Shown here in pieces: positions 26,086 to 41,578 of a stretch of 64,000 nucleotides of DNA. The DNA is from Gordonia alkanivorans NBRC 16433 (GTDB taxonomy: Bacteria > Actinomycetota > Actinomycetes > Mycobacteriales > Mycobacteriaceae), in contig NZ_BACI01000033.1 in the NCBI RefSeq assembly GCF_000225505.1, positions 1-64,000 on the forward strand, in the 5' to 3' direction. The position numbers and the translations under genes are program-made. The notes beneath the pieces were generated by a model, which was given only the letters and a program-made list of their open reading frames with translations, did not search any database and was not told the DNA's origin. Within the stretch, counting starts at the first letter, position 1. Every line of letters starts with the position of its first letter.

Positions 26086-27255
26086 TCAGATCAGCGCGGC
26101 AGCGCGCTCCTGATGTGCAGCGAGTGTGAACTCGCGGGGGCACAGTGCACTGGCGCCGTCCACGGCGAGATCGCGCGCGATCCGGCCGAACGTGGGTGCC
26201 AGCTTGAAGCCGTGGCCGGACAGTCCTGCGACGGCCACGATGCTGCCCGTCGGGTCCCGGTCGACGATCGGGACCCGATCGACGGTGAACATCTCGTGGT
26301 GCGCGGTGAGGCGGACCGGCTCGGGGTTCATGTCCGGGAAGAAGTCGGTCACCTGCGCGGCGAGGTGGGCGCCGAAATCGTCGGGCAGATCGGGCAGTTC
26401 GGCGAGCGTCGGGGCGGACGGCAGGTCGAGGTGGCCGGGGCTGACCTTGACGCTGTATCCGTCGAGCGACGGCGCACCGAAGAAGTGCACGTCGCCGATG
26501 TCGCGCATGAACACCGGGAACCGCTCGGGCAGGTACCGGCCGATGTCGGTGGGCATGAACCACGAGAGCGCGAGGCGCTGCACGTGGACCAGGTCGCGGA
26601 CGCCGGGCAACAGCTCCGTCGCCCACGACCCGGTCGTCACGATGGCGGTCCGGGCCCGCACGACGCCCTGGGCCGTGCGGATGGTGACGCCGTTGTCACC
26701 GGGTTCGACCGCCTCGACCGCACAGTGGTAACGCATGCGGACTCCGTTGGCCTCGGCGAGCCGCAGTGCGCTCAACACCGCGACCTCGGGACGCAGCCCT
26801 GCGCCCTGGGGATCGAGGATGCCCACGTCCGAGTCGTGGACGTCGTGCTGCGGGTACTCTTTTCGCAGTTCCTCGGTGTCGAGGTATCGGTGGGGGAGTC
26901 CGAAGGTGTCGATCGTCTCCCTGGTCGCGACCATCTCCGGCTGCGTCTCGGGGCCGATGCTCAACGCACCGACCTGCAGCAGGATCTCGGTGCCGGCCTC
27001 CTGTTCGAGCTCGAGCCACTGGTGACGGGCGTCGGTCAGCAGCGGGAGGTAGAGGCCGCCCTCCTTGTAGGCCATCCGGAACAGCCGGGACTCGCCGGCG
27101 AAGGAGCCGAGTCCGTGTGCGCGGCCGTACTGTTCGATGCCGAGGACCGACAGCCCGGGCACCTTCGAGAGGTGCCACAGGGCCATCGCGCCGACGCTGC
27201 CGGCGCCGATGACGGCGACGTCGACGAGTTCTTCGGGGGTCGATGCCGAGGTCAT
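26086..27255 (-). CDS. Sarcosine oxidase / N-methyl-amino-acid oxidase-like flavoenzyme
   Basis: A 389-residue FAD-dependent amine oxidase of the SolA/MSOX family, which oxidatively demethylates N-methyl amino acids. The dinucleotide fold VAVIGAGSVGAMALWHLSK is at residues 11-29, and LSGHGFKLAP near the C-terminus is the family's FAD-contact motif. The cysteine that binds FAD covalently in sarcosine oxidase (in the CMYT motif) is not found at the aligned position, where HHEMFTVDR occurs, so the flavin is probably non-covalent. ATG at 27255 overlaps the upstream gene's stop by 4 bp. Last gene of the amidase-headed operon. Confidence 0.85.
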   Translation of the reverse strand: MTSASTPEELVDVAVIGAGSVGAMALWHLSKVPGLSVLGIEQYGRAHGLGSFAGESRLFRMAYKEGGLYLPLLTDARHQWLELEQEAGTEILLQVGALSIGPETQPEMVATRETIDTFGLPHRYLDTEELRKEYPQHDVHDSDVGILDPQGAGLRPEVAVLSALRLAEANGVRMRYHCAVEAVEPGDNGVTIRTAQGVVRARTAIVTTGSWATELLPGVRDLVHVQRLALSWFMPTDIGRYLPERFPVFMRDIGDVHFFGAPSLDGYSVKVSPGHLDLPSAPTLAELPDLPDDFGAHLAAQVTDFFPDMNPEPVRLTAHHEMFTVDRVPIVDRDPTGSIVAVAGLSGHGFKLAPTFGRIARDLAVDGASALCPREFTLAAHQERAAALI

Positions 27256-28406
27256 GCCAGCACCGGGGTGTTCCAGAGGTTCAGCGAAGTGCCGATACCG
27301 AGGGTGCGGGCACGCTCGTACACGCGGGTCGCCCACGCGACGTCCTCGACCGGCATGCCGCCGATGGAGAAGATGACGATCTGATCGGGGTCGCGCTCGG
27401 TGCCGCCCGAGGCGAGGATGCGGCCGATGTCCTCAATGCGTTCCTCGGCGAGCTTGCCCTCGTGCACGCGGTCGGTGAAGAAGCAGCCCACGATCGGGAT
27501 CGAGGCGTAGGTGGGGTAGGGGAACTCGTCGGCCCAGGCCTCGTAGAGCCCGAGGTTGTCGACGACGAGGCGCACGTCGTCGGAGATCAGGTCGTCGTCG
27601 AGGCTGACCGACGACGGCATGGCGAGGTAGGCGCCGGGCTTGACCCATTCGCGCTTGAGAACGGGGTAGTTCTCCGGCGACCCGCCACTGGTGGTGCAGT
27701 AGGTCACGATGTCGGAGTCGCGCACCGCGGCCTCGTTGGTGTCGACGAATTCCACACGGATCTGCGGGAATTCGCGCTCCATCCACTCGCGGAAGATGTT
27801 GAGTCCGCGCTCGCTGCGGCCCTTCACCTTCACCAGTTCGATCCCCGGCCGGGCGACGACGAACGACTGCAGCGCGGTGCGCGCCATCACGCCCGGGCCG
27901 ACGATGCCGACGACCTTGGAGTCCTCGGGGGCGAAGAGGCGGGCTCCGACGCCGGGGATCGCGCCGGTGCGCATGGCCGACAGCAGGTTGGCCGACATCA
28001 CCGCACGCGGGGCACCGGTCTCCACGTCGTTGAGGACGAACAGGTGGATCGAGCGGGGGAGGCCGGAGAGCTTGTTCTCGATGTTCGATCCGTACCACTT
28101 GACGCCCGCGGAGTGGAAGGCCCCGCCCAGGTAGGCGGGCATGGCCATGAAGCGGCGGTCCTCGGTGTGGCGGGGCATGCCCGGGAACTCGGGCTCCTCC
28201 GGGAAGGAGATCATCGATCCGTGGGAGTCGCTGTTCTTGCCGGCCATGCGGTAGTCGCCACGGCCGAGGAGGGCGAACATCTCCTCCATGGTGTCCACAC
28301 AGGCGGCCATGTCGGTGACGCCGGCGGCCACCATGTCGGGCTCGGAGAGGTAGAGGAAGTCGATGGCGGTGTCGGTGGTGGTGGTCTCGACCGTGGTCTC
28401 AGTCAT
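27252..28406 (-). CDS. Ornithine-cyclodeaminase/mu-crystallin family protein (tyramine oxidase subunit B-like)
   Basis: A 384-residue protein of the OCD/mu-crystallin family. The substrate domain has HSAGVKWYGSNIENKLSGLPRS; the NAD(P)-binding domain has SKVVGIVGPGVMARTALQ, a GxGxxA variant. Some relatives are labelled subunit B of tyramine oxidase, others are imine/ketimine reductases or amino-acid cyclodeaminases. In this operon, beside a flavin amine oxidase and an SDR, processing of an imine or N-substituted amino acid is a reasonable inference. Lies 40 bp after the SDR stop. Confidence 0.82.
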   Translation of the reverse strand: MTETTVETTTTDTAIDFLYLSEPDMVAAGVTDMAACVDTMEEMFALLGRGDYRMAGKNSDSHGSMISFPEEPEFPGMPRHTEDRRFMAMPAYLGGAFHSAGVKWYGSNIENKLSGLPRSIHLFVLNDVETGAPRAVMSANLLSAMRTGAIPGVGARLFAPEDSKVVGIVGPGVMARTALQSFVVARPGIELVKVKGRSERGLNIFREWMEREFPQIRVEFVDTNEAAVRDSDIVTYCTTSGGSPENYPVLKREWVKPGAYLAMPSSVSLDDDLISDDVRLVVDNLGLYEAWADEFPYPTYASIPIVGCFFTDRVHEGKLAEERIEDIGRILASGGTERDPDQIVIFSIGGMPVEDVAWATRVYERARTLGIGTSLNLWNTPVLA

Positions 28407-28446
28407 CGGGTGATCCCTTCGCGTGTCGTGGTGTGTGTGGTGTGGG

Positions 28447-29223
28447 TCAGGCGGACTGGACGACCACCGGGGTGCCGACCATCCAGCCGCCGTCGACGGT
28501 GAGGATCTCGCCGCAGATGTGGTCGGACAGCGGCGAGGCGAGGAACAGCACCGAGTCGGCGATCTGCTCCGAGGTCGCCCACCTGCCGTTGGGCGTCTGC
28601 CCCTCGAGCGCGGCCCGGATCTCCGGGGAGTAGAGGGAGGTCATGTCGGTCTCGACGAAGCCCGGCGCGACGCCGTTGACGTTGATTCCGTCTGCGGCGT
28701 AGTCGATCCCGGCCTGGCGGGTGAAGTTCACCATCGCCGCCTTGCTGGCGCAGTACGCGGCGAAGCCGGGGTTGGCGCGCAGCCCGCTGATCGAGGCGAC
28801 GTTGACGATCTTGCCGCCGTTGCCGGCGTCGAGCATGGCCCGCAACGCCGCCCGGGTGCAGAAGAACGTCCCGTCGACGTTCACCGCGAACTGCTGCCGC
28901 CACACCTCGTCGGTGGTCTCGGTGGCGCTCCCGGCGAAGAGGACGCCGGCGTTGTTGACGAGGATGTCGATGCCGTGCTCGGCGGCGATCTCGCCGAACA
29001 CCCGGTCCACCGCGGCGGAATCGGCGACGTCGAGCTCACGCGACTCCGCGGCGCCGCCCGCGCGGCGGATCTCGGCCGAACAGGACTCGTCGCCGGCCTT
29101 GAGATCGGAACGGTCGCAGATGATCACCGAGGCGCCGGCCTCGGCGAGGCGCAGCGCGCTGGCGCGTCCGATGCCGCGCGAACCGCCGGTGACGACGGCG
29201 GTCTTGCCGGTCAGGTCGATCAC
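28447..29223 (-). CDS. Short-chain dehydrogenase/reductase
   Basis: A 258-residue classical SDR. TGGSRGIG is the cofactor loop (about 12-19), NNAGV follows at about 88, and the catalytic residues are S (ASISG), Y and K in YCASK. CDRSD after beta-2 suggests NAD preference. It is close to 3-oxoacyl/alcohol dehydrogenase types. The GTG at 29223 overlaps the amidase stop by 4 bp, so it belongs to that operon. It may oxidise an alcohol liberated by the amidase; this is inference. Confidence 0.88.
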   Translation of the reverse strand: MIDLTGKTAVVTGGSRGIGRASALRLAEAGASVIICDRSDLKAGDESCSAEIRRAGGAAESRELDVADSAAVDRVFGEIAAEHGIDILVNNAGVLFAGSATETTDEVWRQQFAVNVDGTFFCTRAALRAMLDAGNGGKIVNVASISGLRANPGFAAYCASKAAMVNFTRQAGIDYAADGINVNGVAPGFVETDMTSLYSPEIRAALEGQTPNGRWATSEQIADSVLFLASPLSDHICGEILTVDGGWMVGTPVVVQSA

Positions 29224-30677
29224 TTGGACTCTCCTTCGGTGACGTTGGACTCGTAGCGGTCCGCCCACGGCCGGACGGTGGAGAAGGCCTTGGCCGCCGC
29301 CAGGACGTCGGCATCCGCGCGGTGGCGGGCCGCGATCTGCAGGCCGACCGGGCGTCCGTCTTCGGTGAAGCCGGCGGGGACGGTGATGGCCGGCGAGGTG
29401 AGCATGTTGTACGGGTAGGTCAGCAGCCAGCCCAGGAGCTGGGTCTGCAGTGGCTCGTCGGCCAGCCACTCCGGGGCGAACTGGTCGAGCGGGAAGGCCG
29501 CTGACGCCAGCGTCGGCGAGACGAGCAGGTCGTAGTGCTCCATGAACTCGGTGAAGGTGTCGTACATCCGCGAGCGGAAGGCCTGGGCGCGGCCGACCTC
29601 CTCGGCGGTGAGGGTCTTGGACAGCTCGTGGATCTCGATCAGCTGGTCGTCGAGTTGACCGCTCAGCTCCTTCCAGTCCGGGAACAGGTCGTTGTCGGCG
29701 GCGAAGCCGGGCACCCAGATGCCTTCCCACATGGCCTGTTCCGGGTTGCCCCAGTTGGGGGTGGCCTCGGTGACCGTGGCGCCCAGCGTCTCGAATGCGG
29801 TGACCGCCTCGCGGCAGATCGCGGCGACCTCCGGGTCGACGTGGCCGACGTTGAGGTCCGGGGAGTACGCGACCCGCAGGCCGGACAGCGGCTTCTCGCC
29901 CTCGGTCCCGTCGAGTTCGGCGGCGTACGACTCGACCTCGCGGGGCAGGCTCATCGGATCGCTCGGATCGAATCCGGTCATGACGTCGAACATGAGCGCG
30001 GCGTCCTCGACGGTGCGGGTGATGGGGCCGTGGAATACCCAGGTCTCGAACTTGGTCTGCAGCAGGGCATGCGGGATGCGCCCGAGCGAGGGCTTGAGGC
30101 CCACGACCCCGCACATCGCCGACGGGATGCGGACAGAGCCGGCACCGTCGGCGCCCTCGGCGATCGGCACCAGGCCCGCGGCGACCGCGGCCGCCGAGCC
30201 CCCGGACGAACCGCCCGCGGTGTGACCGTGCTTGAACGGGTTGTGGGTGGGGCCGTAGAGGTGGCTGTCGGTGCCGCCGTAGTAACCGCCCTCGGGCGCG
30301 TTGGTCAGGCCGGTGAACAGGCCGCCCGCGGCCTTGAGTCGCGCGACGACGACGGCGTCCTCCTTGCCGATCTCGTCGGCGAACGGCGTCATCGAATGCG
30401 TGTTGGGCAGGCCGGCGACCTCGGTGAGGCACTTGATCGCGAACGGCGCGCCGTGGAGCGGTCCGAGCGGCTCGCCGGCGGCCTGCTTGGCGTCGAGTTC
30501 CCGGGCGTCGGCCAGGACCTGTTCCCGGTCGTAGTGGACGTATGCGTTGATCAGCGGGTTGATCGCCTCGATCCGCGCACAGGCGGCCTCGGCGACCTCG
30601 AGCGCGGTGAGCTCGCCGGCGGCGATCTTGGCCGCGATCTTGGTCGCGGACATCCATGCGTACTGGTCGGCGTCCAT
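29220..30677 (-). CDS. Amidase-signature amidase (first of two)
   Basis: A 485-residue amidase-signature enzyme that hydrolyses carboxamide bonds with a Ser-cisSer-Lys triad. The Lys lies in APFAIKCLTEVAG (about 81) and the serines in TAGGSSGGSAAAVAAG (about 157). It resembles GatA-like and aryl- or peptide-amidases but no Gat partner genes are near. It heads the operon amidase, SDR, OCD-like, SolA-like, and its promoter region carries the composite operator. AGGAG precedes the ATG. Confidence 0.88.
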   Translation of the reverse strand: MDADQYAWMSATKIAAKIAAGELTALEVAEAACARIEAINPLINAYVHYDREQVLADARELDAKQAAGEPLGPLHGAPFAIKCLTEVAGLPNTHSMTPFADEIGKEDAVVVARLKAAGGLFTGLTNAPEGGYYGGTDSHLYGPTHNPFKHGHTAGGSSGGSAAAVAAGLVPIAEGADGAGSVRIPSAMCGVVGLKPSLGRIPHALLQTKFETWVFHGPITRTVEDAALMFDVMTGFDPSDPMSLPREVESYAAELDGTEGEKPLSGLRVAYSPDLNVGHVDPEVAAICREAVTAFETLGATVTEATPNWGNPEQAMWEGIWVPGFAADNDLFPDWKELSGQLDDQLIEIHELSKTLTAEEVGRAQAFRSRMYDTFTEFMEHYDLLVSPTLASAAFPLDQFAPEWLADEPLQTQLLGWLLTYPYNMLTSPAITVPAGFTEDGRPVGLQIAARHRADADVLAAAKAFSTVRPWADRYESNVTEGESK

Positions 30678-30758
30678 GGACTACTCCTGAATGGGTGAGG
30701 GGGAGGTGGGAATGGTTCGGCGCGAGTGTTTTTCGGCGCCCAACAAATGTCCGTCGAA

Positions 30759-30800
30759 ACCATTACTGGTCCCCGATACCGTCGTAACGCGCAGGTTACG
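30759..30800 (-). promoter_or_regulatory. Composite operator, copy 1 (first amidase operon)
   Basis: On the plus strand ACCATTACTGGT (30759-30770), 12 bp, then CGTAAC (30783-30788), 6 bp, GTTACG (30795-30800). It lies 82 bp upstream of the amidase start. The same layout recurs at 32901-32942. Half-sites AATGGT also occur at 30711 and 30807. Confidence 0.72.
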
Positions 30801-30826
30801 GAATGGAATGGTCTGCAACACAACTA

Positions 30827-30859
30827 AAGTGGGCACGACCGGAAAGGTCGTGCCCACTT
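30827..30859 (-). terminator. Terminator of the symporter operon
   Basis: A 14-bp perfect stem (30827-30840 with 30846-30859, arm AAGTGGGCACGACC), loop of 5 bases, followed on the minus strand by TTAGTTGTGTT. It lies 36 bp past the symporter stop. Confidence 0.85.
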
Positions 30860-30895
30860 GTCGTGTCGAGCAGGAGACGAGGAGGTCGGTGTCTC

Positions 30896-32485
30896 CTACT
30901 CGGCCGGGGACTGAGCAGTTGCGGCGGTGCTCACCCCGTCGCCGGTGGCGACGACCTCGATGTCGTCGGTCCGGCTGGCCCGCAGTGCGGCGAGGGCGGA
31001 CTCGCCCTTGGCTGCCGCGAACATCTCCTCGACGTGTGCGCGGTCCTCCTCGGAGTGACCGGTGACCGCCGAGACGATCAGGAAGACCGCGAGGTTGACG
31101 GCGAGGCCGACGATGCCCGAGGTCAGGCTGCCCAGGGCGCGGATGTCGTCGTTGTAGACGCCGGTCAGCGCCGCGGCGATGACGAAGCCGCTGACCATGC
31201 CCCAGATCGCGCCGTACTTGTTGCCGCCCTTCCAGAAGATGCCGAGGAACAGCGGCACCGACAACTGGATGATGCCCTGGTAGGAGATCTGGGCGAGCAG
31301 CTGGAGACGGTCGAAGTTGAACGTCGCGAAGGCGATGACGCCGGCCAGGAGCATGTAGACCACCATGCTCGCCTTGGCGATCACGGTCAGCTGGTGGTCG
31401 GACAGCGGACGCCGGACCAGGGTGGCGACGATGTCGTTGGAGACCTGCAGGCCGGCCACCTGGACGCTGGCGTCGGTGTGACCCATCTGCGCGGCGAAGA
31501 CGATGACCACCGCAAGCCCCAGCATCCACGTGCCGCCCCACTGGTCCAGCAGGGTGAACCAGGCGCCCTGCGGGTTCTCCATGACCTCGGGGATGTTGAC
31601 CGCGGCGAGACCGACCAGCATCAGGATGGTGTAGAAGGTCGCCGAGATGAGAATCGTTGCGAGCGTGCCCTTCTTAACCGTGCGCACGCTCGAGGCGGTG
31701 TAGATGCGCTGGAAGCTGGTGGGCCAGCTCAGCGATCCGATGACGCCGGTGAAGACGAGTGCGAAGATGTACCACGGTCCGTACTTGTCGCCGCCGCCCG
31801 GGAGCACCAGGAATTTGTCGCCGATCGCCTGCAGGTCGCCCCAGCTGATCGGGCTGCCCATCGCGCCGGTCAGCATGATGACGCCGACGAGACCTGCGAC
31901 GATGTAGGCGACGAATCCCTGGAACATGTCGGTCATTATCAGGCCGCGCATACCCATCTGGACGGTCCAAAACTGGCGGATGAGGATTACCCCGAGGCCC
32001 ACGCACAGGGACGCGATGACCGACCAGGCGCCGCCACTCGCGATCTCGAACAGGGTTCCCAGTGCTTGCATACCCAGGACGACCCATGGGAACAGTGAGA
32101 TCACGCCGATGGCGCTGGCGATGACGCGGACAGCGTCGGAACGGTAGCGGACACGCATCAAGTCGGGCTGGGTGCGCAGGTCGTAGACCTTTCCCCAGCG
32201 CCATGCGCGGGTCGCCATGAGGTACATGAACGCGACGCCGAGTGTGGAGTACGCCAGTGCGTACATGCCGAAGACGCCGGCGCCTGCGGCGAGGCCGAAG
32301 AACGCGATGAAGGTCGAACCGGGCCACCACGAATTCACATATGACATCGCGACGAACCAGGTGCCGTATGCGCGGCCACCGACCGAGTACTCCTCGAAGG
32401 TCGGATTCGATTTCTGTTTGGTGGCGTAGAGAATTCCCACCACAATCGCGTAGAAGACTAGAAGCATTCCGAGCATGATCACCAT
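30896..32485 (-). CDS. Sodium:solute symporter family transporter
   Basis: A 529-residue SSS-family transporter with about 13 hydrophobic segments from residue 5 to about 480 and a hydrophilic C-terminal tail. Family features include VGGRAYGTWFVAMSYVNSWWPGSTFIAFFGLA in helices 1-2 and the central VFTGVIGSLSWPTSFQRIYTASS. It presumably imports the organic substrate of this locus with Na+. The ATG shares one base with the stop of the small upstream membrane protein. The operon is preceded by composite operator copy 2. Confidence 0.9.
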   Translation of the reverse strand: MVIMLGMLLVFYAIVVGILYATKQKSNPTFEEYSVGGRAYGTWFVAMSYVNSWWPGSTFIAFFGLAAGAGVFGMYALAYSTLGVAFMYLMATRAWRWGKVYDLRTQPDLMRVRYRSDAVRVIASAIGVISLFPWVVLGMQALGTLFEIASGGAWSVIASLCVGLGVILIRQFWTVQMGMRGLIMTDMFQGFVAYIVAGLVGVIMLTGAMGSPISWGDLQAIGDKFLVLPGGGDKYGPWYIFALVFTGVIGSLSWPTSFQRIYTASSVRTVKKGTLATILISATFYTILMLVGLAAVNIPEVMENPQGAWFTLLDQWGGTWMLGLAVVIVFAAQMGHTDASVQVAGLQVSNDIVATLVRRPLSDHQLTVIAKASMVVYMLLAGVIAFATFNFDRLQLLAQISYQGIIQLSVPLFLGIFWKGGNKYGAIWGMVSGFVIAAALTGVYNDDIRALGSLTSGIVGLAVNLAVFLIVSAVTGHSEEDRAHVEEMFAAAKGESALAALRASRTDDIEVVATGDGVSTAATAQSPAE

Positions 32486-32730
32486 CAGTCGTCGCCCTCC
32501 CCGCGGATGTTCTCCACGATGTACAACGCGGTCAGGCTGGCGCCGACCAGGGCAGCGTTGACGATCCAGTACATGACCGCCCACGGGATACCGAAGATCA
32601 CTGGGCTCTTGACGCCGCTGGCGCTCAGGTATAGCGGGGGGAACAGTGCCATCAACAGAGCGAATCCGTAGATGACGCCGAATGTGGTGTTGATTACCTT
32701 GCGATCCAGGCTCTTTATGAACTGAGTCAA
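32485..32730 (-). CDS. Small membrane partner of the symporter (DUF3311-like)
   Basis: An 81-residue protein with two hydrophobic segments (about 18-38 and 48-70), resembling the DUF3311 proteins encoded beside many SSS symporters. The TTG at 32730 is chosen because AAGGAG lies 8 bp upstream; the longer frame to 32820 would add an Arg-rich stretch unlike the family. Translation is coupled to the symporter by a one-base overlap. It is separated from the operator by about 170 bp of leader with no recognised element. Confidence 0.78.
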   Translation of the reverse strand: MTQFIKSLDRKVINTTFGVIYGFALLMALFPPLYLSASGVKSPVIFGIPWAVMYWIVNAALVGASLTALYIVENIRGEGDD

Positions 32731-32900
32731 GGAATCGGCTCCTTTCCTTGAGGTCGATCGCCCAGCGGCAGACCGGGGTCGGGCGCGGCGACGAGTGTCG
32801 AAGTGGCTCGGTTGCACCAAGAAGGTTCAGTCCGAACTTGATACGTAGGGAAGTGATCTGCGTACCGCTGTCGGTGTGTGCAGCCAAAGCATGCGAGTGG

Positions 32901-32942
32901 ACCATTACTGGTCACGTTTCGGGTCGTAACGGACCTGTTACG
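32901..32942 (-). promoter_or_regulatory. Composite operator, copy 2 (transporter operon)
   Basis: ACCATTACTGGT (32901-32912), 12 bp, CGTAAC (32925-32930), 6 bp, GTTACG (32937-32942), on the plus strand. Both palindromes and all three distances are identical to copy 1. The outer GTTACG overlaps the stop codon of the GntR gene. Confidence 0.72.
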
Positions 32943-33786
32943 CGTCGGCCGTGACCTCGCGCTGGGTGTCGTGATGGCCCATTTCCAGGCGGTGCTGCAA
33001 TCTATGGGCGCCCGGCTCCTGACCATCGCCCGGGTGTGCCGGCACGTGCAGGACCGTCCGGTCTGCGCGAAAGTAGTCGACGGACATCTCCACCGGCTCG
33101 CCGAACTGGTCGTAGGTGTTGCGGGTGACCTTGAGCAGGGGCGTACCCACTTCGACGGCCAGCGCCGCTGCGACACGCGGTGACGCACACACGACGCGGA
33201 TCTGCTCGTCGGCCGTGGTGGGGCGTACGCCGTAGTGTTCGACCAGCAGTTCGTAAAGTGATCCGATCAGGGAGCGTTCGAGCAGTTGGGGAAAACGCGT
33301 GGCCGAGACCCGGAACGACTCGAGAGACAACGAATCCCCGTCGGCGAAGCGAATTCGTACGATGGCCGCGATCAGATCGTCGGAGTCGATGTCGAAGTAG
33401 TGCCGCTCTTCCTCTGTGGGGTGTTCGTAGGACGCGGAGAGCAGGCGGGTGCCCGACTCGAAACCCTGGGAACGCAGCATCTGCGGCACGCCGACGACGG
33501 TCCCGAGTGGGCGCTCGACACGCCGGCCCTCGGCCGGGTCGACCTCGTCGACGAATGTGTTGTCGGGCTGTGACTGTGCCGCGGTGAGATACGCGCCACC
33601 GGTACGGCCGCGCTTGCGGTGGACGATGCCTTCATCCTCGAGTTCGGCGAGAGCGCGACGCACCGACGACCGAGACACGTTCAGCCGTTCTGCGAGTTCA
33701 CGTTCAGCGGGCAGCTTGGTGAACCCGCGGCGTGCCAGGTCGTCGGCAAGGCGGGAAATGGTGGCAAAGGTCTCTTCGTAGGTCAC
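32938..33786 (-). CDS. GntR-family regulator with UTRA domain
   Basis: A 282-residue HutC-type GntR regulator. The winged HTH (LPAERELAERLNVSRSSVRRALAELEDEGIVHRKRG) covers about residues 24-60, and the UTRA effector domain follows from about 95. It lies at the centre of the amide/amine locus and is the most likely protein to bind the composite operator. GTG start at 33786; TATAGA at about 33799-33804 on the minus strand could be a -10 element giving a nearly leaderless transcript, and an AATGGT half-site at 33813 lies just upstream. The C-terminal 25 residues are unusually rich in H, Q and R. Confidence 0.88.
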   Translation of the reverse strand: MTYEETFATISRLADDLARRGFTKLPAERELAERLNVSRSSVRRALAELEDEGIVHRKRGRTGGAYLTAAQSQPDNTFVDEVDPAEGRRVERPLGTVVGVPQMLRSQGFESGTRLLSASYEHPTEEERHYFDIDSDDLIAAIVRIRFADGDSLSLESFRVSATRFPQLLERSLIGSLYELLVEHYGVRPTTADEQIRVVCASPRVAAALAVEVGTPLLKVTRNTYDQFGEPVEMSVDYFRADRTVLHVPAHPGDGQEPGAHRLQHRLEMGHHDTQREVTADA

Positions 33787-33920
33787 TGCTCACCGTGCTC
33801 TATAGATCGGGGAATGGTTGCTCCGCGCGCTGGCCCCGCAGACTCGTGACCCGCGCGAGCGGCGTGTCTTGTCAAGACTCGCACCGAATCTCGCGTCATG
33901 CGAACCCAGGAAATGCAGAA

Positions 33921-33950
33921 TTTACGTTTGGGCCAGGGACCAGAAATGGT
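33921..33950 (+). promoter_or_regulatory. Composite operator, degenerate copy 3 (second amidase operon)
   Basis: TTTACG (33921-33926), 12 bp, ACCAGAAATGGT (33939-33950). Read along the gene this keeps the spacing of copies 1 and 2 (GTTACG-N12-ACCAGTAATGGT), with one mismatch in each part. The distal CGTAAC half is not recognisable. It ends 19 bp before the preferred ATG of the amidase. Confidence 0.6.
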
Positions 33951-33969
33951 TCGGATGCAACCTTTACGC

Positions 33970-35406
33970 ATGCCTCAGCAGACGCAGGTTCCCGTTCTGG
34001 GATCGACAATTGAGCAGCTCCGCGGCGGATTCGCCGATGGAAGCACCACACCGTCCGACGCGCTGGAACTGACAATCGCGCACCTGGAAACGGTCCATCC
34101 GGCGATCAACGCCATTGCCGCCACCGACTTCGACGTAGCACGGGAGGCCGCTGAGGCGGCAACCCGACGGTGGGAGGACGGCCGGTCACTGGGCCCATTG
34201 GACGGGGTCCCGGTCACGGTCAAGGACAGCGTGAACGCGGTCGGACTGCCGTGGCGACATGGCACAAAGCCGAACGATGGACGCCCGGGCGCGGACGTCG
34301 ACGCCCCGCCGTCGGCACGCCTGCGAGAGGCCGGGGCGGTGATCGTGGGCAAGACAACGATGCCCGATTTCGGCATGCTCGCCTCCGGTGTGTCCTCGCT
34401 TTACGGCATCGTGCGCAATCCCTGGGATCTCTCCATGACGCCCGGCGGGTCGAGCTCGGGTGCCGGGGCGTCGCTCGCCGCGGGCCTCACCTGGGGTGCG
34501 ATCGGCACCGACATCGCGGGCTCGGTGCGTCTGCCCGCGGCCCATTGCGGCATCGTCGCCATCAAACCCACCCAGGGCCGTATCCCGCATCTCGCGCCGA
34601 GCACTGTGCGCAGCGCGGGTCCGATGGGCCGGACGGTCGCCGACGTCACCGAGCTGTTCGGTGTGGTCGGACGGTTCGACGCGCGGGACTCTTTGGCACT
34701 CGCCGACGAAACCGATTGTGACGAGTCGGTTCTGCCATTGGATGCGGTCAACGGACTGCGGGTCGGCGTCCTGTCGGACATGGGATATGGATTCCCGGCC
34801 GACGAGCCGACGTTACGGACGCTACGGGCGGCCGCCCAGACGCTGGCCGAGGGTGGTTGCGAGATCATCGAGCTGCCGGCGCCCTTCGCGCCGGGCGTCT
34901 ACGACGCCCTCGACACGTTGTACGTGGTGCGTGCCCGCGCCGAGCTGGAATCACATGGCGATCGCGGTGGGTACGTACTACCCGGACTGGTGCGCTGGAT
35001 CGAGGCCGCGGGCCCGCTCAGCGCGACCGATTACGAACGCGCCTTGGGTCGCGTGACGACTGACCAAATGGCTTTCGCGGCCTTGCAGCGCGACGTCGAC
35101 GTCGTGCTGTCGCCGGTGCTGCCGTCGGCGGCATTCCCGGCCGAGCACCTCGGCATGAACCAGGACCGACCGCTGGAGCACTGCAGCTTCACCGCGTGGT
35201 TCAACCAGACCGGGCAGCCGGCGGTGTCGATGCCGTTCGGCGAGGACAACGGGCACCCGGTCGCGATCCAGATCGCCGGACCGCGGTACGCGGACCGTCG
35301 CGTCCTCGCGCTGGCCGGCTGGCTCGAGGCCCGTCGTGGCAAGGAGCCCGATTGGCCGCTGGAACCGCGCGCGACGCCGGGAACCGTGTGGAAGGAGGCG
35401 AAATGA
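33970..35406 (+). CDS. Amidase-signature amidase (second)
   Basis: A 478-residue amidase-signature hydrolase: Lys in VPVTVKDSVNAVG, serines in PGGSSSGAGASLAAG, and GSVRLPAAHCGIVAIKPTQGRIP. It is only distantly similar to the first amidase, so it probably acts on a different amide. ATG at 33970 is preferred; ATGs at 33898, 33946 and 33955 would place the coding region over the operator. No strong ribosome site is visible for any of them, so the start is uncertain. Its stop overlaps the first kinase gene by 4 bp. Confidence 0.88.
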   Translation: MPQQTQVPVLGSTIEQLRGGFADGSTTPSDALELTIAHLETVHPAINAIAATDFDVAREAAEAATRRWEDGRSLGPLDGVPVTVKDSVNAVGLPWRHGTKPNDGRPGADVDAPPSARLREAGAVIVGKTTMPDFGMLASGVSSLYGIVRNPWDLSMTPGGSSSGAGASLAAGLTWGAIGTDIAGSVRLPAAHCGIVAIKPTQGRIPHLAPSTVRSAGPMGRTVADVTELFGVVGRFDARDSLALADETDCDESVLPLDAVNGLRVGVLSDMGYGFPADEPTLRTLRAAAQTLAEGGCEIIELPAPFAPGVYDALDTLYVVRARAELESHGDRGGYVLPGLVRWIEAAGPLSATDYERALGRVTTDQMAFAALQRDVDVVLSPVLPSAAFPAEHLGMNQDRPLEHCSFTAWFNQTGQPAVSMPFGEDNGHPVAIQIAGPRYADRRVLALAGWLEARRGKEPDWPLEPRATPGTVWKEAK

Positions 35407-36323
35407 CCACGAAGCTCGAACTCTCCGGAGGGCGGGTTCTGTCCGACCGGATGGATGGGACACCGACCATGGCCAGCCCCAGCTGGTGGGGTGCGGACAC
35501 GTTGCGAATCCGCGGTCGGCTCGATGACGTGGCGGTCCACGTCCGCCGTTACACCGACGCCGCGCGGTCCTATGTGAACGTGCCCGCGGCGGTGGCCGCC
35601 ACCGAGACCGCGGGCGCCGCCGGGCTGGGGCCGGCGGTCGTGTCCTCAGATGTCGCATCCGGCGAGCTTGTGCTGGCCGACCTGACCGAGACACATCGCA
35701 CGGCAACCCTCGCCGACGGCAACACGGCGGAGTTCGTCCACAGCTATTTCGAGATCCGTTCTCGCGTCGGTGACCTCAAGCCCACTGTGGTCCGAGAGGC
35801 CACCGTCTTCGACGACATCCGCGAACTCGGCTTCCGGCTCGGCGAAGCGGGCGCCCCCGTCCCTGCCGAACTGACCTACTTCCGGCGTGTCCTCGACGAC
35901 GCCGAGAAGCGCATCAAAGCAACCGATTTCGATCGCGAGCTCCGACACGGCGACGGGAACCTGTCGAACGTGATGGTTTCTCGAACCGACGGTTCGCTGC
36001 TTCTGCTCGACTGGGACCTCGCCGCGATGATCGATCCGTTCCAGGACTTGGGTGTTGCACTGGTCGAGCTCGCCGAGGATGAAACGCACGCACGTGAGCT
36101 CTTCGAGGTCGCGTACGGCAGCTTCGACGAGGCGCTGTTGGCCCGGTGCCTGTTCTACGGGTACGCCGACCACGTGCGTCAGGGCATGTTGGGGATGCTG
36201 GTCGACGCCCTCGACCCAGGCTCCTTCGAGTATTCGAAATTCGGTGACTGGCAGTTGCTGCGAGCACGGTTGGCGTTGTCGGGTACCCGATCTGGTGAAC
36301 TGCTGAGGAGGATTGACCAATGA
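35403..36323 (+). CDS. Aminoglycoside-phosphotransferase-fold kinase
   Basis: A 306-residue small-molecule kinase of the APH/choline-kinase fold. The catalytic motif RHGDGNLSNVMV (about 180-191) and the metal-binding LLLLDWD (about 198-204) are present. The N-terminal lobe is shorter and less conserved; the ATP-binding lysine is not obvious (VHVRRYTD occupies that strand). Overlaps both neighbours by 4 bp. Relatives phosphorylate hydroxyl groups of amino alcohols, sugars or hydroxylysine. Resistance to aminoglycosides is not implied. Confidence 0.8.
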   Translation: MTTKLELSGGRVLSDRMDGTPTMASPSWWGADTLRIRGRLDDVAVHVRRYTDAARSYVNVPAAVAATETAGAAGLGPAVVSSDVASGELVLADLTETHRTATLADGNTAEFVHSYFEIRSRVGDLKPTVVREATVFDDIRELGFRLGEAGAPVPAELTYFRRVLDDAEKRIKATDFDRELRHGDGNLSNVMVSRTDGSLLLLDWDLAAMIDPFQDLGVALVELAEDETHARELFEVAYGSFDEALLARCLFYGYADHVRQGMLGMLVDALDPGSFEYSKFGDWQLLRARLALSGTRSGELLRRIDQ

Positions 36324-37291
36324 AGACGCTATCCGACGAGCACGAAGCCGCCGGGGTGTTGCGGGGCGGGGCACGAACCTCGGCCGAACGCGCGGTGGAG
36401 TCCGCACTGGACCCGGTGGCGGCTTGGGTCGGCCGTACGATCCGGTATCAGCCCGTACACGGCGGGCTGCAGAACGAGAACTGGCGCCTTGACGTGGAGG
36501 GGGAGGACACGCCGTACTTCCTAAAGATTCCGGGCGCCGGCTCAGATGCATTCATCGACCGCGGAAACGCCCATCACGCGGCTGAACAGGCCAGTGCCCT
36601 TGGGATCAGTCCGAAGATCGCCCACTTCGACCCGTCGACGGGTATCGAGATCATCGAGTTCCTCGAAGACTACCGCGCGTGCACCAACGGCGACATGAAG
36701 CGTCCGGAGATCGCCAGTGAGATCATTCGGTTGTACCGGGCCTTCAACAGCATCGAACCGTTGCCTTGTACCAAGACGATCCTCGACATGATTGTCGAAC
36801 ACCACGATCAGGCACTGGAACTCGGAACTCGGTTACCGCACTTCTGGCCCCAGCTGAAGATCGAGTACTTCTCGGCACGGGACGCGTTGCTGGCCGGTGG
36901 GATCGACATGGCGCCGTGCCACAACGATCCGATGCCCGGCAACTTTCTGATCGCCGAAGGCAAACCGATGCGCCTGATCGACTTCGAGTTCTCGTCGAAC
37001 AACGAACGGGCTTACGAACTCGCCGTCATGACCACCGAGTTCTTCTTCGATGACGTCCGAACCGCCGAGTGCGTCGAGGAATTCTATGGCTCCGCGACGA
37101 CCGAAACCATTGCACGCGTACAAGTGTGCGGATTCCTCGCCGACATAAAGTGGGGGCTGTGGGCGATTGTTTACGCCCAGCTCAACGAGTCCTGGGACTA
37201 CGACTACCAGAAGTACGGCGTGTGGAAACTCCGGCGCGCGCTCTCACGCACAGCTGATCAACGGTGGGGTGCCTGGATCGGCAACATCTGA
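36320..37291 (+). CDS. Choline/ethanolamine-kinase-like protein
   Basis: A 323-residue kinase resembling LicA-type choline kinases. HGGLQNENWRL (nucleotide loop, about 47-57), YFLKIPG (ATP lysine, about 69), CHNDPMPGNFL (catalytic aspartate, about 198-208) and LIDFEFSSNNERAYELA (metal aspartate) are all present, so it looks complete. It probably phosphorylates the hydroxyl of an alkanolamine. It is translationally coupled to the first kinase; the two may act on different substrates or as a hetero-oligomer. Confidence 0.82.
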   Translation: MKTLSDEHEAAGVLRGGARTSAERAVESALDPVAAWVGRTIRYQPVHGGLQNENWRLDVEGEDTPYFLKIPGAGSDAFIDRGNAHHAAEQASALGISPKIAHFDPSTGIEIIEFLEDYRACTNGDMKRPEIASEIIRLYRAFNSIEPLPCTKTILDMIVEHHDQALELGTRLPHFWPQLKIEYFSARDALLAGGIDMAPCHNDPMPGNFLIAEGKPMRLIDFEFSSNNERAYELAVMTTEFFFDDVRTAECVEEFYGSATTETIARVQVCGFLADIKWGLWAIVYAQLNESWDYDYQKYGVWKLRRALSRTADQRWGAWIGNI

Positions 37292-37370
37292 CGAATCCTC
37301 GTCGTCTCACCGCACACCTGGTCGATCCGCAACGCAGTCGGTCCGGTGTTCTACCAAGAAAGGCCGCTCA

Positions 37371-38726
37371 ATGGGCACCTCTTCGATCCTGGACGGAAAC
37401 CGTTTCGACACCGAGAGTCTCGGTGCACTGGCCCCTGCTGCGCGGGCGCTCGTCGAGCGTAGGATAAACACCCTGGGTACCAGCTACCGCCTCTTCTACC
37501 GGAACCCCGTACAGGCCGTTCGCGGACTCGGCACGCGGCTCTACGATGCCGAGGGACGTGAGTACCTCGATGCCTACAACAACGTCGCCAGTGTCGGCCA
37601 CTGCAATCCCGCGGTTGTGGAGGCCGTGACCAAGCAGCTGAGCACGCTCGCGACACACTCCCGTTATCTGCAGGACGGCATCGTCGAATACTCCGAACGG
37701 TTGTTGCAGACCTTGCCGGAGTCCCTGAACAGGGTCATGTACACCAACTCCGGCTCGGAGGCGAACGACCTCGCGCTACGGGTGGCCCGCCACTACACCG
37801 GCGGCACCGGGATCGTCGTCACCTCTGAGGCCTACCACGGCACCACGGCGTCATGCGCCGAGGTGTCACCCTCGGACGGCAGTGGGGGCCTGCCCGCCCA
37901 CGTCATCGCCGTCGATCCACCGAATTCGTACCGGCACGAGGAGAATTCTTCGGTCGCCGAGGCGTTCGCCGCCCGGGTGACCAGAGCGTTCGAGACCCTT
38001 CGCGAGCGCGGCCACGAGCCGGCGGCACTACTCGTCGACAGCATCTTCTCCTCGGACGGGGTCTTTCCCGTCGACGGCGCGCTGCAGGCCGCATTCGCTG
38101 CAGCGCGTGCCTTCGGAGCACTGGTGATCGCCGACGAGGTGCAACCGGGGTTCGCCCGGGTCGGGACATCGTTCTGGGGATTTGCCCGTGACAACGCAGT
38201 CCCCGATCTGGTCACACTCGGCAAGCCGATGGGCAACGGTGTCCCGGTGGCCGGCATGGTGGCCAACACCGAGATACTCGACGCTTTCGGGCGGGATGTT
38301 CCGTATTTCAACACCTTCGGCGGATCAAGTGTGCCGGTGGCGGCGGCCGCCGCGGTTCTGAGGGAGATCCGGGAACGCCGTTTGTTCGAGAACGCCGAGA
38401 GCATCGGTGCGATCGTACGGGCCGGATTGGAGGAGCTGGCCTCTGACTTTCCGCAGGTCGGTGACATCCGCAGTGCTGGACTCTATTTTGGTGTAGAGCT
38501 GGTGGCAGATCCGGAGACCAGGGAACCGGGCACGGCGTTCGCCGCGGACCTGATCAACGCATGTCGCGAAGGTGGTCTGCTCATCTCCGTGTGCGGCCCG
38601 ACGAGCAGCACGCTGAAGATCCGTCCCATGCTGACGTACACGGTTGCAGACGCCGAGCTTCTCGTCGAGCGGCTCGGTGCCGCGCTGAACGTGGCCACAC
38701 GCTTGGCGAAGGCGGGCGTCGCATGA
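37371..38726 (+). CDS. Class-III aminotransferase-fold PLP enzyme, possible amino-alcohol-phosphate phospho-lyase
   Basis: A 451-residue PLP enzyme of aminotransferase class III. Landmarks are NNVASVGHCNPAVVEAV, YTNSGSEANDLALRVAR (phosphate-binding loop), LLVDSIFSSDGVFP, VIADEVQPGFARVG and the PLP-binding Lys in LVTLGKPMGNG. Some members of this branch (ethanolamine-phosphate and 5-phosphohydroxylysine phospho-lyases) eliminate phosphate and ammonia from phosphorylated amino alcohols; being downstream of two kinases fits that activity better than transamination. AAGAAAGG lies 7 bp before the ATG. Overlaps the HAD gene by 4 bp. Confidence 0.85.
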   Translation: MGTSSILDGNRFDTESLGALAPAARALVERRINTLGTSYRLFYRNPVQAVRGLGTRLYDAEGREYLDAYNNVASVGHCNPAVVEAVTKQLSTLATHSRYLQDGIVEYSERLLQTLPESLNRVMYTNSGSEANDLALRVARHYTGGTGIVVTSEAYHGTTASCAEVSPSDGSGGLPAHVIAVDPPNSYRHEENSSVAEAFAARVTRAFETLRERGHEPAALLVDSIFSSDGVFPVDGALQAAFAAARAFGALVIADEVQPGFARVGTSFWGFARDNAVPDLVTLGKPMGNGVPVAGMVANTEILDAFGRDVPYFNTFGGSSVPVAAAAAVLREIRERRLFENAESIGAIVRAGLEELASDFPQVGDIRSAGLYFGVELVADPETREPGTAFAADLINACREGGLLISVCGPTSSTLKIRPMLTYTVADAELLVERLGAALNVATRLAKAGVA

Positions 38727-39367
38727 GCCGGAAACCCGCAGCCGTCCTGTGGGACATGGACGGAACGATCCTGGACACCGAGGAGTACTACAACGATTCG
38801 GCGAGGGGTATTCTCCACGCCCATGACGTCGCCTGGACCGACGAGATCGAGTTGGCACTCAACGGAGGCAGTCTTCCCGATATGGCACAGGTCCTCATCG
38901 ACGCGGGCGCCGAACTGACGGTCGACGAGATCGTGCGCCGGTTCATCCTCGATGTGTCGGCCCGACTCCGGGGAAAGTTGCCGTGGAAGCCGGGCGCAGA
39001 GTCGATGCTCCGCGGATTGAGGGCCGAGGGTACCCCGACCGCGTTGGTGACGATGTCACCCCGGGTGCTGGCCGAGATGGTCGTGTCCGCGATGTCCTTC
39101 GACGCGTTCGATATCGTCGTGACCGCGGACGACGTCGAACGGGCCAAGCCGGCCCCAGACGCGTATGAACTCGCGGCAGCGAAGCTGGGCGTCGACATCC
39201 GTGAGTGCATCGCGGTGGAAGACTCGCGCCCCGGGATCGCTGCTGCCGTGGCCTCGGGAGCGCGCGTGGTCGGCGTGCCGCTGGAACACCTTGTTCTCGA
39301 GGATTACGAATTCACCCGGTGGGACGGCCTCGCCGGCCGCACTGTCCAGCAGATGTTCCGTGTCTGA
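38723..39367 (+). CDS. HAD-superfamily hydrolase
   Basis: A 214-residue HAD subfamily IA phosphatase: DMDGT (motif I, about 10-14), ALVTMS (motif II Thr/Ser), K in ERAKPAPDAY (motif III) and VEDSRPGI (motif IV). It has the small helical cap domain. Last gene of the kinase operon; it may dephosphorylate an intermediate or remove a dead-end phosphoester, as phosphatases often do beside kinase-lyase pathways. Confidence 0.87.
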   Translation: MSRKPAAVLWDMDGTILDTEEYYNDSARGILHAHDVAWTDEIELALNGGSLPDMAQVLIDAGAELTVDEIVRRFILDVSARLRGKLPWKPGAESMLRGLRAEGTPTALVTMSPRVLAEMVVSAMSFDAFDIVVTADDVERAKPAPDAYELAAAKLGVDIRECIAVEDSRPGIAAAVASGARVVGVPLEHLVLEDYEFTRWDGLAGRTVQQMFRV

Positions 39368-39380
39368 GATTGCGACCCGC

Positions 39381-40121
39381 TCAACCTGACGACCAGCGCA
39401 CGCCGGCGTGCATCTCCCAGAACAGGATCTCGGCTCCGCCGGGACTGTGCACGGAGATCTCGCCGGCGGTTCGCGTGCGAACGGCATCACCCTCGCCGAG
39501 GGTCGTGCCGTCGAGTTCGACGCTCCCTCGTGCGACGTACAGGTGACCGTAGGGTGCGTCGGGCAGCGTCACCGTCTTTCCGGCGGGCATCCGTGCCACA
39601 TGTAGGGCGGCGGCGGAGTTGTTGATCGTCACCGGCGTCGTCGTCGCGTCGCGGGACAGTCCGGAGGCGACCACCACGAGTTCGCCGGTCGCCAGCGCAC
39701 CGGAGACGTCGGCCTCGGCGTATCCGGGTTCGAGGTCGGCCTCGTCGGGTGCGACCCACATCTGGACGACGCGCAGGTCGGTGCCGTCGAGGCGGCCGGT
39801 GGCGTTGCCCTCGCTGTGGGCGATCCCGCGACCGGCCGTCATGCGTTGCACCACTCCGGGTTTCAGGATTCCGTCGTTGCCCGTGGAATCGCGGTGGCGC
39901 AGTGCTCCTTCGAGAACCCATGTGACGATCTCGGCATCGCGGTGCTGATGGCGGTCGAGCCCCTCGCCCGCGTCGACCCGATCGTCGTTGTGCACGAGCA
40001 GGACTCCGTGGGCGTTGGCGGCGAGGTCGAAGTTGCCCGTCGCCGGGAAGGACTGCCAGGACTCGAGCCACTCGTTGCGCCAGTGGTGACGCTCGTCAGC
40101 CCGGATGATGGTGAGCGGCAT
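39381..40121 (-). CDS. Pirin-family bicupin (YhaK-like)
   Basis: A 246-residue pirin/YhaK-family bicupin. The N-terminal cupin carries the metal ligands in DRHQHRDAEIVTWV and the downstream Glu/His in HSEGN. YhaK-type pirins have quercetin-dioxygenase-like or redox-sensing roles. ATG at 40121 follows GGAGACC. It shares one base with the end of the MarR gene, so the two are co-transcribed. Confidence 0.85.
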   Translation of the reverse strand: MPLTIIRADERHHWRNEWLESWQSFPATGNFDLAANAHGVLLVHNDDRVDAGEGLDRHQHRDAEIVTWVLEGALRHRDSTGNDGILKPGVVQRMTAGRGIAHSEGNATGRLDGTDLRVVQMWVAPDEADLEPGYAEADVSGALATGELVVVASGLSRDATTTPVTINNSAAALHVARMPAGKTVTLPDAPYGHLYVARGSVELDGTTLGEGDAVRTRTAGEISVHSPGGAEILFWEMHAGVRWSSG

Positions 40122-40603
40122 CAGGTCTCCTGATCTCTCGGGTGGGTGGCGTCGAGATGGGTGGCGAGTTTTTCCATCACCGCACGCAGTTCGCGTCCAT
40201 CGGAGGGTCGCAATGCGGAGAAGAACAACCCGTCGACGCACCGACCGTGGTCGTGGGCGGCTTCGCGGAAAGCGGCACGCCCGGCGTCGGTGAGGACCGC
40301 GTAGCTACCACGCCGGTCCTCGGCGGCGCGTTCGCGCTGCAGCCAACCGCGTTTGACCATCGCGTCGACCTGGTAGGACAGACGCGACGTGGAGAACACC
40401 ATGCGGTGCGACAGGTCTCGCATCCGCAGTCGGCCGCCCTCGCTCTCGTGCAGGATGAGCAGCATGCTGTAGTCGGCGAGACTCATCCCGGCGGTGGCAC
40501 GTAGGTCGTCGTCGAGCATGGTCTGCAGCCGCGCGGCGGTCTCGATGAAGACGCGCCACGCGGCCTGCAGATCGTCGGACCCGGCGGGGGAGTGTCGGGC
40601 CAT
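40121..40603 (-). CDS. MarR-family regulator
   Basis: A 160-residue winged-helix regulator. The recognition helix lies in LRMRDLSHRMVFSTSRLSYQVDAMVKRGWLQRE, followed by the wing ERAAEDRRGSYAVLT. It lies between two pirin genes on one transcript and probably represses the operon through the palindrome at 41603-41616. No cysteine-based oxidation sensor is evident. Confidence 0.88.
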   Translation of the reverse strand: MARHSPAGSDDLQAAWRVFIETAARLQTMLDDDLRATAGMSLADYSMLLILHESEGGRLRMRDLSHRMVFSTSRLSYQVDAMVKRGWLQRERAAEDRRGSYAVLTDAGRAAFREAAHDHGRCVDGLFFSALRPSDGRELRAVMEKLATHLDATHPRDQET

Positions 40604-40606
40604 GGA

Positions 40607-41578
40607 TCAGCGAACGGTGTGCGGCATCAGCGCATCCGGCGGGATGACACCGAGTCGGCCGGCTTGATAGTCCTCGATCGCCTCGACGAGTTGCTGCTTG
40701 GTGTTCATGACGAACGGACCGTACTGGAACACACGCTCGCGGATCGGACGGCCGCCGAGCAGCAGGACCTCCAGCGCGGGACGGTTGCTGTCCTGCGAAC
40801 CGTCGGCGGCCACGGTGATCCGGTCACCCTTGCCGAGGACCGCGAGCGATCCCTGTTCGATCGGGCGACCCTCCGCGCCGACCCGCCCACGCCCGGACAG
40901 CACGTAGACCAGCGCGTTGAACTCGGGATTCCACGGAATCGACACCCCCGCACCCGGTTGCACCGTGGCGTGGGCCAGGGTGATAGGTGTGTGCGTCGAT
41001 CCCGGCCCGCGGTGGCCGTCGATCTCGCCGGCGATGATCCGGATCAGCGACCCGGCGTCCGGGGAGGTCACCAGGCCCACCTGACCGCCCTCGAGATTCT
41101 GGTAGTTGGGCGGGAGGAACTTGTCCTTGGCGGGCAGGTTCACCCACAGCTGGATGCCGTGGAACAGCCCGCCCGACTCGACCAGCTCGGCCGGTGGGGT
41201 CTCGATGTGGAGGATGCCGGACCCGGCCGTCATCCATTGCGTCGCACCGTCTTCGATGAGGCCGCCGCCCCCGGCGGAGTCCTGGTGGGCGAAGCGGCCG
41301 TCGATCATGTAGGTCACGGTCTCGAAGCCGCGATGCGGGTGCCAGGAGGTGCCCCGCGGTTCGCCGGGTTCGTAGTCGACCTCGCCCATCTGGTCCATGT
41401 GGATGAAGGGATCGAGGTCGGCGGCGGAGACGCCGGCGAAGGCGCGCACCACCGGGAACCCTTCTCCTTCGTATCCGCGCGGTCCGCGCGTGACCGAGCG
41501 GACGGGTCGTTCGATGGCGTCGACCCCGGGCGAGGACAGGCGCGCCAGAGTCAAGGTGTCGGCGGAGACGGCAGGCAT
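40607..41578 (-). CDS. Pirin-family protein
   Basis: A 323-residue pirin with both cupin domains. HPHRGFETVTYMIDGRFAHQD and GSGILHIETP contain the three histidines and one glutamate that bind iron in pirins. It heads the operon pirin, MarR, pirin, 3 bp before the MarR gene. Pirins can act as quercetinase-like oxygenases or redox-dependent regulators; which applies is unknown. Confidence 0.87.
   Translation of the reverse strand: MPAVSADTLTLARLSSPGVDAIERPVRSVTRGPRGYEGEGFPVVRAFAGVSAADLDPFIHMDQMGEVDYEPGEPRGTSWHPHRGFETVTYMIDGRFAHQDSAGGGGLIEDGATQWMTAGSGILHIETPPAELVESGGLFHGIQLWVNLPAKDKFLPPNYQNLEGGQVGLVTSPDAGSLIRIIAGEIDGHRGPGSTHTPITLAHATVQPGAGVSIPWNPEFNALVYVLSGRGRVGAEGRPIEQGSLAVLGKGDRITVAADGSQDSNRPALEVLLLGGRPIRERVFQYGPFVMNTKQQLVEAIEDYQAGRLGVIPPDALMPHTVR

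Follow-up and report, generated by a model that had tools for sequence, protein, structure and literature searches.

Positions 26086 to 39367 of a 64,000-base stretch of Gordonia alkanivorans NBRC 16433 (contig NZ_BACI01000033.1, hereafter the window) hold eleven genes, A to K, and a small symporter partner, running from the end of an FAD gene to the end of a HAD gene, and together they make up a catabolic locus that is real and conserved and appears to be co-regulated. Our reading, to which we give a probability of roughly 55%, is that a single GntR regulator controls three operons that catabolize a water-soluble amide of ethanolamine or of a close 1,2-amino alcohol. A sodium/solute symporter (SSS) and its small partner would import the amide, amidases would hydrolyze it, and a pair of kinases, kin1 and kin2, would phosphorylate the ethanolamine unit at its hydroxyl, before or after the unit is released from the amide. 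A pyridoxal phosphate (PLP) enzyme, J, would then form acetaldehyde from phosphoethanolamine by eliminating phosphate and ammonia, with no need of B12, a HAD phosphatase, K, might dephosphorylate product that escapes J, and an amine oxidase made of A and B may burn free ethanolamine to glycolaldehyde, ammonia and H2O2. If this is right, the gene set becomes a pathway that can be put to the test, with acetaldehyde made from phosphoethanolamine as its named product, and the GntR protein with its operator becomes a ready sensor for inducer screening, the inducer naming a nutrient common to Actinobacteria (Gordonia, Rhodococcus, Mycobacterium), Bifidobacteriaceae, Coriobacteriia and Rhizobiales. 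Searches of the open-licence literature turned up no description of this cluster or of its kinase pair.

The association of these genes exceeds chance, as the same gene set recurs in other genomes. All eleven genes stand together in Gordonia paraffinivorans NBRC 108238 (84-100% identity) and in Microbacterium sp. SORGH_AS_1204 (52-80%), and a core of hydrolase, kin1 and kin2 recurs in Mycobacterium, Rhodococcus, Bifidobacteriaceae, Coriobacteriia, Rhizobiales and Vibrio. Our counts are anchored on kin2, which is present in all 52 loci by construction; these comprise 45 of 46 loci from named genomes (L088, a 31% partial match, was left out) and seven plasmid loci opened one by one, from plasmid records of which 83 match at 1e-30 or 86 at 1e-20. 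Genes in the compared loci were called by a simple codon-usage script, and a gene counted as present when its tblastn match passed a bit cut-off chosen for that gene, between 60 and 200. kin1 lies upstream of kin2 in 52 of 52 loci, the alignment ends falling within 205 bases of each other. Among the hydrolases, ami2 occurs in 44 loci, an M20 enzyme in 34, one or the other in 51 (a hand count from the listing) and ami1 in 16, alongside SSS (30), an IMPase-type phosphatase (27), GntR (23), a short-chain dehydrogenase (SDR; 6) and HAD (6). Candidate exits from the pathway are J (17), EutB (5), EutC (5) and an aldehyde dehydrogenase of the bacterial microcompartment (BMC) type (4). Transporters vary between related loci, from SSS to ABC systems of oligopeptide, sugar and branched-chain type. 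When 396 Actinomycetota genomes were searched with a kin2 profile there were 10 matches at 1e-55, and the eight outside Gordonia, which had kin1 by BLAST in none and ami2 only in L108, are not counted as cluster; across 59 Gordonia genomes kin2 is found in 3, B in 11 and both in 2. Among 240 genomes of the class to which one Rhodobacteraceae metagenome-assembled genome (MAG, G079) belongs, kin2 matched only in G079 itself. Four loci, L099 and L100 of a Rhodobacteraceae MAG and L101 and L102 of Vibrio sp. S9_S30, carry ami2-kin1-kin2 within microcompartment loci with BMC shell genes; by sequence reading their neighbors include an aldehyde dehydrogenase and a sugar-type ABC transporter, and in the MAG also a hydantoinase-like gene and two DUF917-like genes.

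Ethanolamine is the likeliest amino alcohol, a narrowing that we draw from the relatives of J, the fold of kin2 and the EutBC enzymes that replace or join J in related loci. Within the class-III aminotransferases J (37371..38726, plus strand) is closest to the phospho-lyases: its nearest solved relatives are an Arthrobacter phospholyase (PDB 5g4i, 339 bits), which we take to be the bacterial phospholyase A1RDF1, and the human ethanolamine-phosphate phospho-lyase, ETNPPL (6tor, 305 bits), the next relative scoring 176. It aligns with both over about 410 residues, including the stretch LGKPMGNG (MGKPMGNG in 5g4i and 6tor), whose lysine, presumably the one that binds PLP, is kept; a setting of amidases and a kinase pair, such as J has, is not described for these enzymes in the literature consulted. 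The lyases documented for the class-III subgroup before PbfA were ethanolamine-phosphate phospho-lyase and one close relative (PMC8154272). kin2 (36320..37291, plus strand) scores 69.9 bits against PF01633, where the cut-off is 29, and is nearest in fold to choline/ethanolamine kinases, closer than to aminopropanol kinase. Its catalytic residues are intact, K69, D203, N208, D221, W278 and W281 being kept in 53 of 53 sequences, and we take D203, N208 and D221 to be the catalytic Asp, the Asn and the second Asp.

What follows the kinases differs by lineage, with J in Actinobacteria, EutB-EutC on four of the seven opened plasmids and both in Rhodococcus ruber. In those four plasmid loci hydrolase-kin1-kin2 has EutBC nearby, next to the kinases or the phosphatase in Agrobacterium pAspH13-3a, Shinella and Paracoccus, and in the same block on pRi2659. 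In Vibrio sp. S9_S30 a stretch of about 16 kb takes in ami2-kin1-kin2, a 45% relative of J, shell genes of a microcompartment and an aldehyde dehydrogenase. In R. ruber NBRC 15591 (L044:10001-14461) kin2, J, EutB and EutC are consecutive and joined by 4-base overlaps, an operon that appears to hold two routes from (phospho)ethanolamine. The likeness to eut utilization lies in the expected product, acetaldehyde plus ammonia, and in EutBC taking or sharing the place of J in 5 of 52 loci; the window cluster differs in carrying no EutBC and in its predicted use of PLP chemistry on a phosphorylated substrate rather than B12. A first-pass annotation of the window, made from its letters, had proposed that an imported amide is hydrolyzed and that one product is an amino alcohol which is phosphorylated and then eliminated. 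Import and amide hydrolysis find support in our analysis, as does the phosphorylation and elimination, now narrowed to ethanolamine.

That the three operons look like one GntR regulon follows from a candidate operator, GACCAGWAATGGTY, whose only exact matches in the whole 5.07-Mb genome, at 30758, 32900 and 33938, each stand before one operon. The first site (30758..30771, minus strand, GACCAGTAATGGTT) precedes ami1 and so lies upstream of the ami1-SDR-OCD-FAD operon, the next (32900..32913, minus strand, GACCAGTAATGGTC) precedes the partner and SSS, and the third (33938..33951, plus strand, GACCAGAAATGGTT) overlies the likely start codon of ami2, the same place that it occupies in the Microbacterium locus (L074). 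At 32900 the palindrome GACCATTACTGGTC is identical in G. paraffinivorans and Microbacterium, and its reverse-strand reading is the exact GACCAGWAATGGTY match. The putative ligand of these sites is the GntR-UTRA regulator F (32938..33786, minus strand; Pfam UTRA 116 bits, GntR 54 bits). With at most one mismatch, the pattern RACCAGWAATGGTY gives 30 sites in the 892 kb of 45 named loci. Of these, 27 lie in the 137 kb that make up the promoter windows of cluster genes, and each of the remaining three is no more than about 110 bases from a GntR 3' end. An operator-like site is present in 23 of the 27 named loci with a GntR match above 60 bits, and the four without one are Bifidobacteriaceae, in which GntR is 30-33% identical. 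Nocardioides (L045) carries a site ahead of SDR-ami2-kin1-kin2 and another ahead of the SSS operon, and the same operator-like site precedes both operons in Gordonia, Microbacterium and Nocardioides. Around the three one-mismatch sites elsewhere in the G. alkanivorans genome, the surrounding 3-kb loci contain no homologue of the cluster. The first-pass annotation had described three operons around one regulator, which the three sites back, and had staked the grouping on co-occurrence in other genomes, a check that it survives: the full set is in G. paraffinivorans and Microbacterium sp. SORGH_AS_1204, and the operons share the operator-like site.

The two kinases are conserved side by side across phyla, and their relationship may be closer than that of neighbors. 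kin1 (35403..36323, plus strand; Pfam APH 39 bits) is an APH-fold, choline-kinase-like partner of kin2, and its AlphaFold2 (AF2) model (pLDDT 91.9) finds only choline/ethanolamine kinases at Foldseek ranks 1 to 13, Foldseek and VIA-align both reporting fold and not substrate. D184 and N189 of kin1 are present in 53 of 53 sequences and D203 in 46 of 53, with Gly in all seven from Bifidobacteriaceae and Coriobacteriia; 10 of 53, the window sequence among them, have Arg in the Lys column. In those seven loci (L079-L082 and L084-L086) the loss of the metal-binding Asp appears as a change from DWD to GWT. That kin1 always accompanies kin2, yet has lost this Asp in seven relatives, suggests an obligate kinase pair. 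A further-reaching proposal, which we hold tentatively and think somewhat improbable, is that kin1 and kin2 form an obligate heteromeric enzyme of choline-kinase fold, in which kin1 is turning into a pseudokinase, or has already become one in Bifidobacteriaceae and Coriobacteriia, and which phosphorylates the hydroxyl of the intact ethanolamide. An amidase would then free phosphoethanolamine for interchangeable exits, either a PLP phospho-lyase or a phosphatase followed by EutBC or an amine oxidase. If true, this would be a phosphorylate-then-hydrolyze route that spans several phyla, for an amide not yet recognized as a bacterial nutrient.

The hydrolases themselves say less about what is consumed. 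Both window enzymes, D (ami1, 29220..30677, minus strand, 346 bits) and G (ami2, 33898..35406, plus strand, 273 bits), score far above the Pfam Amidase cut-off and so belong with amidase-signature hydrolases such as aryl acylamidase, FAAH and NylA. They differ from these in that their best solved relatives are modest (226 bits for ami1, to an aryl acylamidase, and 155 bits for ami2), and family membership gives no substrate. Neither the hydrolases, with many solved amidases at modest scores, nor the transporters, which vary in related loci, allow the amide to be named.

A and B look like the two subunits of a 'tyramine' oxidase, an enzyme type that serves to oxidize ethanolamine. A (26086..27255, minus strand; Pfam DAO 144 bits) is an FAD amine oxidase subunit of the monomeric sarcosine/N-methyltryptophan oxidase family, and B (27252..28406, minus strand) is an OCD/mu-crystallin-like protein that scores 587 bits against NF004848, 'tyramine oxidase subunit B' (cut-off 362), it being this NCBIfam name by which B is taken for the second chain of Arthrobacter tyramine oxidase. 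In all 12 other loci with B that we compared, an FAD oxidoreductase gene adjoins it or lies one RidA gene away. An A-like FAD gene (38-43% to A) comes directly after B in each of the four other Gordonia loci compared, from nine with B, and another (29% to A) adjoins B in genome G357; all five plasmid loci opened, from 23 records with B, read B, a RidA gene and then an FAD oxidoreductase. The window pair is like the Arthrobacter-type enzyme in having an OCD-like subunit B beside an FAD gene. It differs in having no RidA gene between A and B (RidA being a context of the plasmid loci and not a feature of the enzyme) and in A itself, which BLAST does not convincingly relate to any FAD protein from the five plasmid loci (best E 0.001). 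Commercial Arthrobacter tyramine oxidase converts ethanolamine to glycolaldehyde, ammonia and H2O2 (PMC7037927). B itself is rare, occurring in 2 of 396 Actinomycetota genomes, and Nocardioides sp. GY 10127 (L045) has a 72% relative of it on another contig. A+B is an accessory of the kinase loci, since A and B each occur in only 2 of 52.

We also considered A as a secondary-amine oxidase of sarcosine type and rejected it. A reaches 185 bits against soxA_mon, the monomeric sarcosine oxidase profile, far short of the cut-off of 479.65, its counterpart of the stretch that in 7exs and 2uzz bears a Cys, presumably the covalent flavin attachment, is free of Cys, and the gene for B adjoins that for A; the contrary point is that A passes NF008425, N-methyl-L-tryptophan oxidase, with 273 bits against a cut-off of 257. 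The suggestion in the first-pass annotation that the flavoenzyme oxidizes an N-methyl or secondary amine is weakened by these results, by the score of B and by the FAD gene next to B or one RidA gene away in 12 of 12 loci; we do not find it supported, though the NF008425 match leaves it some probability.

Several points weigh against the ethanolamide reading. The operator pattern was derived from the very sites that it then detects, so what is informative is the lack of exact matches elsewhere and the conservation across genera; at two mismatches the counts do not rise above controls, either in the genome (18+18 against 23+30 for the reversed pattern) or in the window, where the core pattern has 26 matches against 43 expected, and a distant Gordonia cluster (G004) has no site with at most one mismatch beside its genes. 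The oxidase pair is confined to 2 of 52 loci, and its FAD subunit A scores above the threshold for N-methyl-L-tryptophan oxidase. J, EutB and the BMC-type aldehyde dehydrogenase are all absent from the locus DNA compared in 27 of 52 kin2 loci, 14 of them Mycobacterium/Mycolicibacterium. The genome also carries two EutB genes elsewhere, so free ethanolamine needs no window cluster, and simple phosphorylation of ethanolamine does not readily account for a set that holds two kinases as well as a phosphatase. With free ethanolamine already served by the other EutB genes, phosphorylation of the intact amide, or of a substituted ethanolamine, is favored.

It is also possible, but in our view unlikely, that the amino alcohol is 1-amino-2-propanol or another larger one, and that the locus is related to the aminopropanol (Aut/RMM) loci but lacks their encapsulation. 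These share with it a GntR regulator, an SDR, an APH-fold kinase and a class-III PLP enzyme, RMM1 loci holding GntR, SDR, phosphotransferase and aminotransferase genes (PMC4207490, PMC6620236). Gordonia has Aut-like operons in which a J paralog (J') accompanies GntR, SDR and an APH kinase, and ami2-kin1-kin2 lies near BMC shell genes in Vibrio and a Rhodobacteraceae MAG. The window locus differs in its added amidases and SSS, in a kinase that is closer to choline kinases than to the aminopropanol type, and in its genome, where no PF00936 match to BMC shell genes was found; membership of an aminopropanol microcompartment is rejected on these last two points. The genome moreover has a separate Aut-like operon without a microcompartment (C53, L031:2631-6840), in which GntR, SDR and a J paralog accompany a relative of aminopropanol kinase (303 bits to 6ef6); from this we conclude that the window kinase pair is probably not part of an aminopropanol pathway and that this route is probably provided separately.

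A similarly improbable account is that the oxidase and the two amidases act on some unrelated amine or amide (a tyramine-type one, for example), with the left operon a separate unit that shares only the regulator. B is found without kin2 in 9 of 11 B-bearing Gordonia genomes, and the left operon, A to E, looks exchanged as a block. Measured per 500 bases from 20 to 46 kb, DNA identity to G. paraffinivorans has a background of 0.73-0.89 and rises to 0.952-0.994 over 26500-32000, with 0.922 at the 26000 step and 0.912, then 0.864 by 33000, on the other side. This tract of 95-99% (window about 26200-32000) within flanks of 73-89% suggests that A-E was probably exchanged recently between the two Gordonia species, inside an older shared locus. 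Against a separate unit, ami1 (16 of 52) and SSS (30 of 52) recur with kin1 and kin2 far outside Gordonia, and the operator-like site stands before both operons in three genera. Least probable to us is that kin1 and kin2 phosphorylate a unit other than ethanolamine, such as a hydroxy acid supplied by the amide's other half, and that J acts on a different phospho-amine. The kinases do occur with M20 hydrolases, IMPase-type phosphatases and sugar-type ABC transporters, and the 27 loci lacking every exit scored would fit as well, but both kinases fold closest to choline/ethanolamine kinases.

The remaining members of the proposed ethanolamide locus are C (28447..29223, minus strand; Pfam adh_short_C2 201 bits), an SDR with a putative role in the route, E, the SSS (30896..32485, minus strand; Pfam SSF 62 bits), and K (38723..39367, plus strand; Pfam HAD_2 90 bits). 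All gene families listed by the first-pass annotation are present, with correct coordinates, by Pfam and NCBIfam profile matches. Genes overlap by 4 bases at five of the eight intra-operon joints (FAD/OCD, SDR/ami1, ami2/kin1, kin1/kin2 and PLP/HAD), partner and SSS by 1 base, and the other two joints have gaps of 40 and 79 bases. The open reading frame (ORF) of ami2 from 33898 is probably too long and ATG 33946 the likelier start, since the conserved site overlaps that ATG, which also matches the start called in Microbacterium. The small membrane partner of the symporter (32485..32730, minus strand, about 81 residues, TTG start) was recognized from its sequence; a Pfam search with the piece 32485-32727 gave no match, and a similar small gene precedes SSS in loci L074, L045, L044, L053, L082 and L085. 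To the right of the cluster, at 39381-41578, two pirin-family genes lie either side of a short, apparently MarR-like ORF.

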